The translations under genes were made by a program, and so were the position numbers. From positions 1-32,570 of the forward strand of contig JAEUJX010000053.1 of assembly GCA_016794545.1 (NCBI GenBank): a stretch of DNA of 32,570 bases, written 5' to 3'. Shown in pieces: positions 617-6,143 of this stretch (within the stretch, counting starts at the first letter, position 1; every line of letters starts with the position of its first letter). This DNA comes from Myxococcales bacterium. Lineage in GTDB: Bacteria > Myxococcota_A > Polyangia > Haliangiales > Haliangiaceae. The notes under the pieces are model-generated. The model was not told the DNA's origin. It saw only the letters and a list, made by a program, of their open reading frames with translations, and searched no databases.

Positions 617-2869
617 TCAGGGCGCGGGCTTTTCGCCCATCACGAAGCGGAGCGTCGAGCCGTTAGCGAGCTGCGCGTGCGTGAGCTCCGGCCCGGTGAT
701 CGCGGCGCCGTCGAGCTCGACCGACTGCACGTAGATCGCCTTCTCGGACAGGCCCTCCGCGGTGATCACGAGCTCCTTGCCGCCAATGCGCACGCGCGCC
801 TGCGGGAAGCGCGGCGCGGTGAGGATCCAGCGATCGCTGCCGGCGATCGGATAGACGCCGAGCGCGTTCAGCACGTACCACGAGCCGAGCGTGCCGCCGT
901 CGTCGTTGCCGGCGACGCCCTCGGGCTGGTCGCTGTACATCACGTCGGCGACCCAGTCGGCCCACAGGTTCGTGAGGTCGCGGCGGCCGAGCTGCGCGAA
1001 GATGAACGGCGCGTTGATGTCGGGCTCGTTGCCGTGCCAGTAGTACGGGCGCGGGAAGTTCGCCGCCGACTCGTCGGCGTGGTCCCAGTCGTCCTTCGCC
1101 TTGGTGAAGAACTCCTCGAGCTTGGCGACCGCGGCGTCGGTGCCGCCGAGGATCTCGGCGAGGCCGGCGGTGTCGTGGATCGCGGCCATCCACAGCGAGT
1201 GCCACGCGTTGGCCTCGGCGTACTCGTCGGTCATGTCGAGCGGATCGAAGTCCGCGGCGGGCGGGAACGAGCCATCAGCGTGCCGGCCGCGGATGAACCC
1301 GACGGCCGGATCGTAGAGCTTGCGCCAGCCGCGGCTGCGCACGAGCAGCGCGTCGCGGTCGCCGGTGTGGCCGAGCGCGCCTGCGAGCTGCGCGAGCGCG
1401 AAGTCGTCGTTCGCGTACTCGGTGGTGGTGGACGCGCTGCGCCCACCGGTCAGCGGCACGTAGCCATACTGGATGTACGAGACGATATCGCCGCGGCCGC
1501 CCCGGACGCTCGGCGGCGCTGCCGGATCCATCGCGGCCTGCCGCAGGCGCGGCCACGCGAGGTCCGCGCCCGCGTCGGCGATCGAGATGCCGCGCGCGAC
1601 CGCATCCGCGATCACGATCTCGGCGGAGGCGCCGAGCATCGAGCCGCTCTCGCCGTTGGCGATCGGCCACTTCGGATACGCGCCGAGCCCCTCGCCGAAC
1701 CCGACGAGCGAGCGCGCCTGGTGCTTCGCGCTCTCGGGCGCTAGCCACGCGTAGAGCGACACTGCCGTGCGGTAGGTGTCCCACAGCGAGAGATCCGACA
1801 TCTGATCCCAGCCTGCCGCCTTCACGACCGGCTGGCCGGCGAGCTGGTAGTTGCCGTCGACGTCGCCGATCACGCTCGGCATCAGGAACGCGTGATAGAG
1901 CGACGTGTAGAACACGCGCCGCTCCTCCTCGGTGCCGCCGGTGAGCAGCACGCGATCGAGGAGCTTCGCCCACGCCGCCCGCGCCTGGGCCGCGACGGTG
2001 TCCACCGAGATCGCCGGCACCTCGGCGGCGAGGTTCGCGCGCGCGCCTGCGATCGACACGAGCGAGATGCCGACCGCGAGCTCGAAGCTCGCCGGCACCG
2101 TCAGCACCGCACCGACGGCCGTGCCCGACGCGGTCATCGCACCCGACGGCTCGTTCCCCATCGACCACACCTGGTGCGCGGTCCACGGCGTGGACGCGGC
2201 GGGCTTCGCGACGAAGTACAGGGTGTAGCCGCCGAACCCGCGCGACATGCCGCCCGTGGTGTGGAGCTGGCCGGTGATCTCGCGCGCGGCGTCGTCGACC
2301 GTGATCTCGGCGGCGTCGATCGTGCCGCTCTCGAGCGTCTTGCCGAGATCGATCAGCACCGCGCCCGCGTTCGTGTAGCGGTGAACACCCACGCGCTGCG
2401 TCGCCGTCAGCGCGACGTCGATCCCGCTCGCGAGCGAGACCTCGTAGAGCCCCGCGGCCGCGGTCTCGCCGTCCTTGGTGAACCGCGACTCGTAGTCGGT
2501 GACCTTCCGCTTCGCCGGGTCGAACGCCTTGATCGGCATCAGGCTCAGCACGCCGTAGTCGGTCGCGCCCGCGCCGTGGAGGTGCACGTGGGAGAAGCCG
2601 CGGATCTTGTCGTCTCCGGCCCAGTAGCCCGAGTAGTGGAGGAAGTTGACCGTGCCGAACGGTCCGCTCGTGTCGGGCCCGAGCTTGACGAGCCCGTGCG
2701 GGACCGCCGCCCCGACGAAGCAGCTGCCGTGGGCGAAGCCGAGGCCCCCCGTCCCGATCGTGGGATCCACGTAGGCGACGGTGTCCGTCACCTCCGGCAG
2801 CTCCGCGGGTGGCCCGTCATCTCCGCTACATGCGGCGGTGATCAGCAGCACGGCGACGGCGGCCCTCAT
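617..2869 (-). CDS. GH92 family alpha-mannosidase, lipoprotein
   Basis: A 750-residue exo-alpha-mannosidase-type enzyme, expected to trim mannose from glycans outside the cytoplasm. The start is ATG at 2869 because it gives a lipoprotein signal (MRAAVAVLLITAACSG, lipobox TAAC); the frame is open to 3520 but that part is low-complexity and crosses a repeat. Family motifs: YVDPTIGTGG then HGSCFVGAAVPHGLV at the N-domain; SLWDTYRTA, YPKWPIANGESGSMLGA and EYAEANAWHSLW in the barrel; GNEPDINAPFIF; and GNDDGGTLGSWY at about residue 654, the acidic pair matching the calcium-dependent GH92 active site. Length matches the family. It is divergent from the membrane protein at 2924 with only 54 nt between. 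It probably contributes to degrading mannosylated prey or environmental polymers; exact linkage specificity cannot be read from sequence. Confidence 0.95.
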   Translation of the reverse strand: MRAAVAVLLITAACSGDDGPPAELPEVTDTVAYVDPTIGTGGLGFAHGSCFVGAAVPHGLVKLGPDTSGPFGTVNFLHYSGYWAGDDKIRGFSHVHLHGAGATDYGVLSLMPIKAFDPAKRKVTDYESRFTKDGETAAAGLYEVSLASGIDVALTATQRVGVHRYTNAGAVLIDLGKTLESGTIDAAEITVDDAAREITGQLHTTGGMSRGFGGYTLYFVAKPAASTPWTAHQVWSMGNEPSGAMTASGTAVGAVLTVPASFELAVGISLVSIAGARANLAAEVPAISVDTVAAQARAAWAKLLDRVLLTGGTEEERRVFYTSLYHAFLMPSVIGDVDGNYQLAGQPVVKAAGWDQMSDLSLWDTYRTAVSLYAWLAPESAKHQARSLVGFGEGLGAYPKWPIANGESGSMLGASAEIVIADAVARGISIADAGADLAWPRLRQAAMDPAAPPSVRGGRGDIVSYIQYGYVPLTGGRSASTTTEYANDDFALAQLAGALGHTGDRDALLVRSRGWRKLYDPAVGFIRGRHADGSFPPAADFDPLDMTDEYAEANAWHSLWMAAIHDTAGLAEILGGTDAAVAKLEEFFTKAKDDWDHADESAANFPRPYYWHGNEPDINAPFIFAQLGRRDLTNLWADWVADVMYSDQPEGVAGNDDGGTLGSWYVLNALGVYPIAGSDRWILTAPRFPQARVRIGGKELVITAEGLSEKAIYVQSVELDGAAITGPELTHAQLANGSTLRFVMGEKPAP

Positions 2870-2923
2870 CGGCCGCGAATCTATCCGAACAGCCCGGGCG
2901 ATGTCCTTTGCTATCTTGGAGGG

Positions 2924-3412
2924 GTGCGGCGAAGGCTCGGTGACATCACCCTGACCGACGGGCGGAGAACCGTGCGCCGCGCGGTGTTCACCGGTCAGGT
3001 CGTGCTCGCCGCCCTCGCGCTCCTCGCGGTGATGGTCGAGGAGCACCACCTGCCCGGGCGGCCGTGGCACTCGACGTGGGGCGAGATGGCCGGCGCGCCG
3101 CTGCTCATCATGGTCGCCGTCGTGATCGCGTGCGCCGCCGCGCTGCGCTGGCCGCGGCTCGACACCGGCATCCTCGCGGGCGCCGTCACCGTCGTCGGCT
3201 CGATGCTCTCGCTCGGGTTCCTCGTCGGCGTGCACATCCTCGAGCAGCCCGATCACAACATCGGCTACGGCGCCGCGGTCCTCACCCTGACGTCGCTCGC
3301 GCCGCTCGCGGTTGTCGCGCAGATCGCCGAGATCGCGACGCGCGTGCGCGAGCGTCGCCACCTCGAGGACAGCGAGCCCGCGTTTCCGATGGCGATCGTC
3401 GTCCGGAGATAG
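2924..3412 (+). CDS. Four-helix membrane protein of unknown function
   Basis: A 162-residue protein if it starts at the GTG at 2924. Its only SD-like tract (ggagg, about 2918-2922) is very close to that codon, so an internal GTG such as 2972 is possible. Hydrophobic segments: AVFTGQVVLAALALLAV, GAPLLIMVAVVIACAAA, GAVTVVGSMLSLGFLVGV and AVLTLTSLAPLAVVAQIA, so four helices are likely. A conserved-looking EEHHLPG follows helix 1. The charged tail RVRERRHLEDSEPAF is probably cytoplasmic. The last codons (IVVRR-stop) lie in the first copy of a 20-bp tandem duplication. I do not recognise the family. The gene is divergent from the GH92 gene. Confidence 0.6.
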   Translation: MRRRLGDITLTDGRRTVRRAVFTGQVVLAALALLAVMVEEHHLPGRPWHSTWGEMAGAPLLIMVAVVIACAAALRWPRLDTGILAGAVTVVGSMLSLGFLVGVHILEQPDHNIGYGAAVLTLTSLAPLAVVAQIAEIATRVRERRHLEDSEPAFPMAIVVRR

Positions 3413-3431
3413 CGATCGTCGTCCGGAGATA
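3392..3431 (+). repeat. 20-bp perfect tandem duplication spanning a stop codon
   Basis: The unit gcgatcgtcgtccggagata occurs at 3392-3411 and again at 3412-3431 with no mismatch. The first copy holds the last codons of the upstream membrane-protein gene and most of its TAG stop. The second copy is downstream and non-coding. Confidence 0.9.
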
Positions 3432-3661
3432 GGGACGGTCTCAACTTGCTCAACTTCGCGCGTGCAAGCGCTTGAGATCACGAGGCAGCAAGGGACGGTC
3501 TCAACTACGCACGCGGCCAACGCCGCACGTGTTTACGGACTCGTCTCCACGATGCCGCTCCTGCTCAGGTGCGCCGGGCGTAGCAACTTGAGACCGTCCC
3601 GCGTGGGTGAACAACTACGCGAGCTTGCGCATCGCAAGTTGAGCAAGTTGAGACCGTCCCT
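3431..3661. repeat. REP-like inverted pair built on GGGACGGTCTCAA
   Basis: This 231-bp stretch has no gene. The motif gggacggtctcaa occurs four times: plus strand at 3432 and 3492, minus strand starting at 3600 and 3660. Both pairs are spaced exactly 60 nt. The outer arms extend to a perfect 26-nt inverted repeat (3431-3456 against 3636-3661). Between the motifs each half holds its own small palindrome (caagcgcttg at 3474-3483; cttgcg/cgcaag around 3622-3638). The whole thus reads as two ~75-nt homologous elements facing each other, like a BIME made of REP units. GGGACGG-headed repeats of this type are, from general knowledge, linked with IS200-like REP-associated transposases; no such gene is in the window. 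Confidence 0.7.
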
Positions 3662-3666
3662 GCTTC

Positions 3667-5709
3667 TCAGTTGATCGTGAACGGATACGCGATCGACGCG
3701 TGGTCGCCGTCGGCGCGCGGCGGAAAGCGCCACGTGTTCGCCGCCTTGATCACGCACGCGCTGACCAGCGGGTTGCCGAGCGTCGACTGGATCTGCGCGC
3801 GCACGCGGCCCTCGGAGTCGACCTGCAGCTGCAGCGTCATCGTTCCCTTCAGGTCCGGAGACTTCTTCTTGCCGTCGGCGATGCACTTCAGCACCTCGGG
3901 GCGGTGCTGGGCGATCACCGAGGCAATCATCGCGCGATCGATCGCGGGCTTCGCGACCGTGACCTCCGCCTTCGGCGCTTCGATTGCCTTCGGCGCCTCG
4001 ACAACCTTCGGCGCCTCGGCCGCGGGCGCCTCGACCGCCTTCGGCACCTCGGCCGCGGGCGCCTCGACAACCTTCGGCGTCTCGGCCACGGGCGTCTCGG
4101 CGGTGGGCGACTCCCACGCCGGCTCGGCGAGCGCGCGCCCGATCTTGCGCGGCTCGACCGCCGGCGCGGGGGCCCGGCGCTCGACGGTCTTCGACGCCGG
4201 CGCGACGGTCACGACCGCGGACGACGGCGCCGGCGCCGCGACCGCCGTGGCCGGCGGGGCCACCGCCGGCGCGATCGGCGCCACCGCGGCCGCAGGCACA
4301 GCCACCTCGGCGGGCGGTGCCACCTCGCCGAGCGCGATCAACGTCGCCTCCTCGGAGGCCTCCTCGAGCCCCGTCCCCTTCGCGAGCCTCGCGGTGAGGT
4401 GCGTCGGACGATCGAACGTCAGCCAGTAGCGCGTCGTCTTGTAGCCGGGCGCCGAGACCTCGACGAGCTCGACGATGTCGCTCGAGCCGATCTGCATCGT
4501 CGCGGGCGCGGCCGAGACGCGGCGGCGGAACGTGACGCGTGCGTTGGGGACGTTGGCCTCGAACCGCACGTCGATCTTCTTCTGCGCGACCTCGCGCGCG
4601 GTCGGGGCCTGCGTCGCGACGGCGGGCAACGACGGCGGAGCAGCCGGCGCGGGCGCCGCTTGCGTGCTCTGGCTCGAGCGCATCGCCATCGCGAAGCCGG
4701 CGCCACCGACGAGCAGGCCGGCGGCCGCGATGCCGTACATCATCCACAGCCGCTTCGGCGCCATGACCGGCGAGCCCACCGGCAGCTGGGCGAGCGAGAC
4801 GGCGGTGTCGACGAGCGTCGCCGGGCGCGGGATCAGATCCGAGCGGCGCGCGATGTCATCGGTGGTCCTCGCGCGCGGCGTCGCGATCGCCAGTACGGCG
4901 AGCGCGGACTCGACCTCCTCGGCACTCGGGCGCGCCGCGGGATCCTTCGAGAGCAGCTTCCCGACCAGCTCCTCGAGCGCCTTCGGCACGTCGGGGCGCT
5001 GCATCGGCGGCGGCGCCGCGGTGACGATGCGGTGCATGAGCGCGCGCTCGTCGTCGTCGTTCGAGAACGGACGGCGCGCCGTGAGCATCTCGTACATCAT
5101 CACGCCGAGCGCGTAGACGTCGGCCCGCTTGTCGGCGAAGCCGCGCGTCGTGATGCGCTCGGGGGCGAGGAACTCGGGCGTGCCGACGCGCGCCGCGAGC
5201 CGCGCGACGCCGAAATCGATCACCTTTACGTGGTCGATCACGTCGTCCTTGTCGACGAGGAACACCGTGTCGCTCTCGAGCGCACCGTGGACGATGCCGG
5301 CGGCGTGCGCGGCGGCGAGCGCCGACGCGATCTGCTGCGCGATGCGCACCGTGCGCCGCACCGGCAGGCCACCGACGCGGTAGATCTCGTCGGTGAGGAG
5401 CGCGCCCTCGAGGTACTCGAAGACGACGTACGGCAGGAGCCCGCTCGTCAGGCCGATGTCGAGTGACTCGACGATGTTCGCGTTGCCGAGCGTGCCCGCC
5501 TTGCGGGTCTCGGTCATGAAGCGCTCGATCACCGACGCGTCGTTCGCGAGCTCGCCGCGCAGCACCTTCAGGGCGACGCGACGCCCGAGCGTCATGTGCT
5601 CCGCCAGGTACACCGCCCCGAGCTGCCCCTCTCCCAGGGTTTGCACCACGCGGTAGCGCCCTTCCACCACGTCCCCCGTCTTCACCACGCAATCCCTCGT
5701 TGTCCCCAT
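3667..5709 (-). CDS. Ser/Thr kinase-like protein with degenerate catalytic loop, PEGA-like and AgmX/PglI C-terminal domains
   Basis: A 680-residue protein from the ATG at 5709 (5724 is also possible; neither has a good SD). Residues ~17-270 are a Hanks-type kinase fold: GEGQLGAVYLAE, the ATP-binding Lys48 in VALK, DFG at 165-167, and TPEFLAPERI. The catalytic loop reads HGALESDT at 141-148 instead of HRDLKxxN, so the catalytic Asp, Lys and Asn are all replaced; phosphotransfer is unlikely. One transmembrane helix follows (~321-342), then a PEGA-like beta domain (~375-443), an Ala/Pro/Val/Glu-rich segment with imperfect VVEAPAAE repeats, and an AgmX/PglI (TonB-like) C-terminal domain (~590-680) ending in FPP...YPF. 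Topology suggests a cytoplasmic pseudokinase linked through the inner membrane to a periplasmic partner-binding domain. Confidence 0.9.
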   Translation of the reverse strand: MGTTRDCVVKTGDVVEGRYRVVQTLGEGQLGAVYLAEHMTLGRRVALKVLRGELANDASVIERFMTETRKAGTLGNANIVESLDIGLTSGLLPYVVFEYLEGALLTDEIYRVGGLPVRRTVRIAQQIASALAAAHAAGIVHGALESDTVFLVDKDDVIDHVKVIDFGVARLAARVGTPEFLAPERITTRGFADKRADVYALGVMMYEMLTARRPFSNDDDERALMHRIVTAAPPPMQRPDVPKALEELVGKLLSKDPAARPSAEEVESALAVLAIATPRARTTDDIARRSDLIPRPATLVDTAVSLAQLPVGSPVMAPKRLWMMYGIAAAGLLVGGAGFAMAMRSSQSTQAAPAPAAPPSLPAVATQAPTAREVAQKKIDVRFEANVPNARVTFRRRVSAAPATMQIGSSDIVELVEVSAPGYKTTRYWLTFDRPTHLTARLAKGTGLEEASEEATLIALGEVAPPAEVAVPAAAVAPIAPAVAPPATAVAAPAPSSAVVTVAPASKTVERRAPAPAVEPRKIGRALAEPAWESPTAETPVAETPKVVEAPAAEVPKAVEAPAAEAPKVVEAPKAIEAPKAEVTVAKPAIDRAMIASVIAQHRPEVLKCIADGKKKSPDLKGTMTLQLQVDSEGRVRAQIQSTLGNPLVSACVIKAANTWRFPPRADGDHASIAYPFTIN

Positions 5710-5792
5710 CAGAGAGAGCAACATGAGTCGGCCATCGGCTCGATCAAGGGATTTCTGACTGTCGTTCTGCGACGACGATGTAGGCTCGTGCG

Positions 5793-6143
5793 GTGACGAA
5801 ACCGAAGTCCGACTCTCCGTTCGCGGCTTTTGAGAAGTTACGCGCGGAGCTACCTGTAGGTGCGGCGCCGCCGACCGCGCCACCGGCGAAGCCCGAGAAG
5901 AAGGGACCCGCGCGCGCGGTCGTTCGGATGGAGCGGAAGGGCCGCGGCGGGAAGGAAGCGACGGTGATCGAGAAGCTCGATCTGCCCGCCACGCACCTCG
6001 AGCGGTGGTGCAAGGAGCTCAAGCAGGCGCTCGGCTGCGGCGGCTCCGTCGACTATCCGAACATCGTCCTCCAGGGCGATCTTCGCCCGCGACTCCCGGC
6101 GGTGCTGACCTCCATGGGCGTCGGCAAGGTCACCGTCGGATAG
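5793..6143 (+). CDS. yciH: SUI1/YciH-family translation initiation factor
   Basis: A 116-residue protein with GTG start at 5793. The C-terminal ~80 residues match the eIF1/SUI1 fold: ARAVVRMERKGRGGKEATVI (basic strand-loop), then LPATHLERWCKELKQALGCG and a VLQGDLRPRLPAVL helix, ending GVGKVTVG. The N-terminal 40 residues are Pro/Ala/Lys-rich and probably disordered. Bacterial YciH proteins bind the small ribosomal subunit and are thought to affect initiation fidelity under stress; that role is taken from the family. Length is normal. The gene is divergent from the pseudokinase gene with 83 nt between, which must hold both promoters. A hairpin-forming region follows its stop. Confidence 0.92.
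   Translation: MTKPKSDSPFAAFEKLRAELPVGAAPPTAPPAKPEKKGPARAVVRMERKGRGGKEATVIEKLDLPATHLERWCKELKQALGCGGSVDYPNIVLQGDLRPRLPAVLTSMGVGKVTVG

Follow-up and report, generated by a model that had tools for sequence, protein, structure and literature searches.

A repeat family with doubled inverted ends, most likely mobilised in trans by a RAYT-type transposase, in a Myxococcales genome

Organization of the locus

The window, the whole 32,570-nt stretch of Myxococcales DNA analysed here, contains an ordered repeat element between two genes whose 3′ ends face each other. The left-hand gene is a small membrane-protein-like open reading frame (ORF) that found no match in a Pfam search. The right-hand gene encodes a Ser/Thr protein kinase, and its TGA stop codon (3667–3669) is immediately beyond the right hexamer of the element. 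The features are as follows.

2924–3412, + strand: flanking gene, small membrane-protein-like ORF that ends at the left junction
3388–3427: 20-bp tandem duplication where the left gene meets the element; the TAG stop of that gene is in the first of the two copies
3426–3431, + strand: left outer hexamer GAGATA (consensus GARNNA), directly outside the motif, from the alignment of 29 ends
3432–3508, + strand: left end unit of 77 nt, with the outer motif at 3432–3457 and the second motif at 3492–3505, from the ungapped alignment of 29 ends
3509–3583: variable centre of 75 bp, without homology to other copies by interior comparison
3584–3660, − strand: right end unit, inverted, with the second motif at 3587–3600 and the outer motif at 3635–3660, from the same ungapped alignment
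3661–3666, − strand: right outer hexamer, GAAGCA when read on the − strand, from the alignment of 29 ends
3667–5883, − strand: flanking gene, Ser/Thr protein kinase (Pkinase)

Exact matches to GGGACGGTCTCAA are found at 3432–3444 and 3492–3504 on the + strand and at 3588–3600 and 3648–3660 on the − strand, with no further exact match elsewhere in the window; shuffled sequences gave a mean of 0.9 matches with up to 2 mismatches allowed. Copies on the same strand are exactly 60 nt apart from start to start. The positions, orientation and spacing of the four copies, two per strand in 60-nt pairs, are those described in an earlier sequence-only reading of this DNA, and the perfect 26-nt outer inverted repeat proposed there is also present (3431–3456 against 3636–3661). 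Over 39 nt the two ends are 85% complementary. The element is somewhat larger than the 3431–3661 given previously and spans about 3426–3666, because the hexamer GARNNA is conserved outside the motif on both sides, which would place the true end approximately 6 nt beyond the earlier boundary. As a single strand the element has a strong predicted fold (z = −11), largely because both ends are inverted copies of each other. The small palindromes that had been noted between the motifs are not conserved: no helix within the end unit has covariation support among 29 aligned ends, and an internal hairpin was rejected as a feature of the unit.

A family of 15 loci in the source genome

The source genome (8.49 Mb in 780 contigs, 96.6% complete) contains 39 exact copies of GGGACGGTCTCAA, where about 0.3 would be expected from composition, and 0 copies of the reversed motif used as a control. 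The motif is thus neither unique to this site nor at chance level. The copies form 15 loci, 14 of which have both ends and one of which (C465) has a single end; the family consists of 13 short dimers, this single end and one long copy on contig C359. The earlier suggestion is borne out in that the repeats form a dispersed family of intergenic copies, with pairs 60 nt apart and mostly at gene ends.

When brought into the same orientation, the 29 ends give a gap-free alignment of 77 nt in which the second motif is at +60 in 29/29. Mean pairwise identity is 98% at positions 1–17 and 80% at 18–26, lies at 36–58% at positions 27–60 and is 83% at 61–74, which is the second motif. Within the first motif a 9-nt sequence is repeated in tandem, TCAACTTGC TCAACTTG. 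In the conserved hexamer GARNNA outside the GGGACGG of each end, G is found at −6 in 26, A at −5 in 24 and A at −1 in 28 of the 29 ends; position −2 is T in 16/29 and position −3 is A, G or C. Complete short copies measure 208–326 bp. No meaningful similarity links their centres, either with each other or with the interior of the long copy, and common descent of the centres was rejected. The near-invariant motifs, set against randomised spacers and centres, say that recognition constrains the ends strongly or that activity has refreshed them. Most insertions look old, because the copies diverge between the motifs. An Rfam search gave no match, PADLOC and PHROGs gave none, and the 17-nt motif was absent from the viral contigs searched.

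This anatomy bears on the label REP/BIME given to the element in the sequence-only reading. A classical REP/BIME would be a mosaic of palindromic REP units spread by a REP-type RAYT, and the family does consist of intergenic copies in inverted pairs, one pair of which has a RAYT-type protein encoded between its two inverted copies (see below). However, the unit is not self-complementary and has no conserved hairpin. A GTAG or CGTC head is not a constant feature, since only 16/29 ends have T at −2, and each end has two copies of the motif in direct orientation. The label is refuted by strict definition, and a classical REP/BIME origin is improbable.

The full-length copy encodes a Y1 transposase

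The long copy (C359, 37751–38910; 1,160 bp) has the same doubled ends arranged around one intact ORF of 339 aa. The protein matches NCBIfam REP_Tyr_transpos with E 9e-11 at a score under the equivalog cut-off, and gives a weak match to Pfam Y1_Tnp under the gathering score. The HUH pair (H65 and H67) and the tyrosine Y123 are invariant across 11 sequences including that of C359. The C-terminal part is long in all homologues and has weak HTH or Bac_DnaA_C matches in three of them (L086, L088 and L106); no C-terminal HTH match was found in the C359 protein itself, and a PDB search by sequence returned chance-level matches only. A gene for a Y1 transposase of the REP-associated type, flanked by the same motif, had been predicted and is present at C359. 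Of the proposal that a BIME is mobilised by an IS200-like REP transposase, the part concerning a RAYT/Y1 gene with the same ends is upheld, whereas the BIME is not.

Other Y1 proteins of the genome were rejected as the mobiliser. Those of C709 (L078) and C350 (L079) are Y1_Tnp proteins similar to each other, of a different type and without such flanking inverted repeats, and the RAYT of C478 is a 208-codon frame without the repeats described here. On C697 (L084, 2278–2446) a different RAYT-like gene is followed by direct GGGAGGGGACGGACGAAGACTGG repeats with spacings of 33, 114 and 135.

Related transposases have motifs of their own

A cross-genus scan covered 30 genomes of the family and 26 others, which are metagenome-type assemblies in many contigs. 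The motif of the source genome has 0–1 copies in each of the 29 other family genomes, and the one in G006 (C20) resembles a degenerate end unit standing alone. Several genomes of the genus and family encode homologous RAYTs, 38–51% identical. When flanks were searched de novo, each of the 11 full-length RAYTs studied, C359 included, proved to lie between inverted repeats of a motif of its own. These repeats begin with TAGGGACG or GGGGACG, or nearly so, and differ in the remainder. Within the genus the motif is usually doubled at each end, 56–67 nt apart: the spacing is 60 nt in the source genome, 61 in G007, 60–61 in G013, 61 in G001, 56 in G012 and 65–66 nt for three RAYTs of G010, and the ends in G003 have spacings of 35 and 67. 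In G028 and G029, from another genus, the motif is single. In the RAYT tree the three G010 proteins form one cluster and the two single-repeat proteins another, both with full support, and deep branches are unresolved; this grouping suggests that motif class and spacing track the transposase.

G010 has three full-length RAYT copies in one genome beside many non-autonomous copies, with 172 matches to GGGGACGSWGTCA. Among the 100 matches listed, the spacing between same-strand neighbours is 65 or 66 nt in 40/40 cases and opposite-strand neighbours face inward in 17/17. Two further G010 loci have doubled inverted ends around a host-like gene rather than a RAYT. The first (C210:38082–39382; L260) encloses an ORF which we take, from its sequence, to be QueG-like (epoxyqueuosine reductase), and the second (C238:6101–7090; L261) encloses an AAA_21 ATPase ORF. 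Gene capture by element ends is possible at both.

Insertion sites and their empty counterparts

Orthologous sites without the element were found for C144, C240, C315, C431 and C749. In G012 and G006 the GH92 glycosidase and kinase genes that flank the window locus adjoin directly, without the element and without the small membrane-protein-like gene (2924–3412); this gene may have arrived together with the element, or have disappeared from these two genomes. The 3′ end of the kinase gene has different neighbours and no element in G010, G001 and G015. Both genes beside the C431 copy match their orthologues in length apart from a few codons; in G014 and G006 this site has no element, and the stop codons of the two genes overlap there (CTAG, CTAA). 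The pre-insertion region for C240, C315 and C749 was located in G004; no duplicated bases are visible at the C315 and C749 empty sites within the divergence of this relative. As the relatives with empty sites are only about 74–87% identical, exact junctions and short duplications are not fully resolvable, and within these limits the loci are lineage-specific insertions without target-site duplication. The sequences bordering the C315 copy (L068, ~2507 and 2714), CGGTGTCCGA / TCGGACACCG, are complementary and lead into a T-run; the copy looks as though it had been inserted in the loop of a terminator hairpin.

The long terminal inverted repeats, the length of 208–326 bp and the TA that precedes 16/29 ends are also what would be expected of a MITE of a DDE transposase, for example of the IS630/Tc1 type with TA duplication, which shares the genome with the RAYT by chance. 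The full-length copy, however, encodes a Y1 RAYT and not a DDE enzyme, and the arrangement of ends around a RAYT recurs in relatives. The flank pairs do not match as duplications and none is seen at the C315 and C749 empty sites, so that a TA target-site duplication was rejected. The lack of a visible duplication fits a Y1 enzyme better than a DDE transposase, and a DDE-driven MITE is very improbable.

Gene ends and stop codons

The element ends are closely associated with the stop codons of the flanking genes. With genes called as long open frames of high third-position GC rather than taken from annotation, about 21/29 ends are no more than 27 nt from the stop codon of a flanking frame. In 11/29 this stop is an in-frame TAG that spans the junction, its T and A being the final flank bases and its G the first base of the element; such a junction TAG is present on both sides at C172, C359, C431 and C683. 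For the left end of C144 and the right end of C168 a junction TAG would have been present before a 20- or 23-bp tandem duplication shifted the junction. Tandem duplications that contain the gene stop are found exactly at the element/gene junction in the window (20 bp, 3388–3427), at the right end of C168 (23 bp) and at the right end of C240 (18 bp) (L064, L067); they could be remnants of the joining reaction, or could have arisen by slippage at the end hairpin. The coincidence with stop codons may stem from the choice of target, from counter-selection of insertions that would lengthen the protein, or from stops brought by the element end. The C431 orthologues mostly extend 1–6 codons further, which somewhat favours the view that the element shortened the genes and gave them new stops.

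The same placement could mean that the elements, whatever their mobile origin, are retained mainly for a host role at gene 3′ ends, as a bidirectional terminator, an mRNA 3′-end hairpin or a protein-binding site. The element would form a long hairpin, and motif columns are kept where intervening columns are randomised. Against this, a search of 2800–4200 for intrinsic terminators (a GC hairpin followed by a T-run) gave 0 sites, the element is missing in relatives at every orthologous place examined, and the motif varies between species together with the RAYT. A role in stopping transcription from both sides, as raised in the sequence-only reading, finds no support in the sequence and is possible in principle only, and retention mainly for a host function is unlikely.

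Proposed mechanism of mobilisation

The feature in the window is thus best described as a non-autonomous, REPIN-like mobile element of a 15-locus family that is, on the comparisons above, most likely mobilised in trans by the Y1 RAYT of C359. This transposase is the likely mobiliser since the same ends surround its intact gene, and since the combination of a RAYT with its own inverted motif recurs in relatives. The element consists of two inverted 77-nt ends, the presumed transposase-recognition sites, around a dispensable centre. The RAYT would recognise both spaced motifs of each end, and its tyrosine would cut and rejoin single-stranded DNA near TA|GGG, carrying any centre with it. Insertion would then occur at gene 3′ ends without target-site duplication. 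Counting against this reading are the scores of the C359 RAYT under the NCBIfam and Pfam thresholds, the divergence of the copies between the motifs, and the fact that no movement has been observed.

A more tentative extension is that a lineage of TIR-type RAYTs in the genus reads jointly two motif copies at a fixed, lineage-specific spacing of about six helical turns, and inserts at stop codons with the element end supplying the TAG. If true, these would be RAYTs with an end built of two sites, with safe-site targeting and with an end code particular to each species. The stop-codon placement of the ends suggests a route by which such elements survive in a gene-dense genome. As homologous RAYTs each have their own motif and spacing, hairpin-free end recognition could be tested by motif and spacing swaps.

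Comparison with known systems

The family shares with strict REP, BIME and REPIN systems the association of a RAYT with the same repeat (C359). Its likeness to REPINs (Bertels and Rainey, 2011; PMC3116915) extends to two inverted recognition units, a variable centre, dispersed copies, a species-specific motif and presumed movement in trans by a RAYT. It differs in that the units are non-palindromic and without GTAG heads, there are two motif copies per end, and there are 15 loci rather than hundreds.

IS200/IS605 elements have no terminal inverted repeats and use subterminal hairpins. The present family resembles the IS608 and ISDra2 members of this group in its HUH single-tyrosine transposase and in that no target-site duplication is visible, but has perfect 26-nt inverted ends without a conserved hairpin.

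The closest likeness is to elements for which the available text of Di Nocera et al. (2013; PMC3733652) describes RAYT-like genes flanked by terminal inverted repeats (TIRs) and not by REPs, named TIRYT and TIRtron. Some of these TIRs contain a GGGGWSAS motif, and single, dimeric or grouped repeat copies are described there as moderately abundant. The available text of Quentin et al. (2018; PMC6006769) assigns most TIRYTs to subclass 2.1, which lacks a REP and has an HTH-like C-terminus. Within the literature searched, both names are confined to these two papers. RAYTs have mostly been studied via palindromic REPs, and the present family offers a natural experiment for the TIR-associated branch. 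As in TIRtrons, a Y1 RAYT-like gene lies between long terminal inverted repeats unrelated to REPs (C359 and 10 homologues), the same repeats are dispersed without the gene (13 short dimers and one single end), and several RAYTs, each with its own repeats, can be present in one genome. As in TIRYTs, the protein has the HUH motif and catalytic tyrosine. An HTH-like C-terminus is indicated weakly in some homologues and not in the C359 protein. The repeat start GGG(G)AC is near GGGGWSAS; that of the source genome, GGGACGGT, departs from it in detail, and several relatives have GGGGACGG, one base off. The difference lies in the end motif, doubled here at 60 nt (56–67 nt in congeners). A doubled end at a fixed, lineage-specific spacing across a genus is undescribed in the texts of PMC3733652 and PMC6006769, the figures and supplements of which may depict it. 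By most tested features the element fits with the TIR dimers of TIRtrons and TIRYTs, here with doubled ends.
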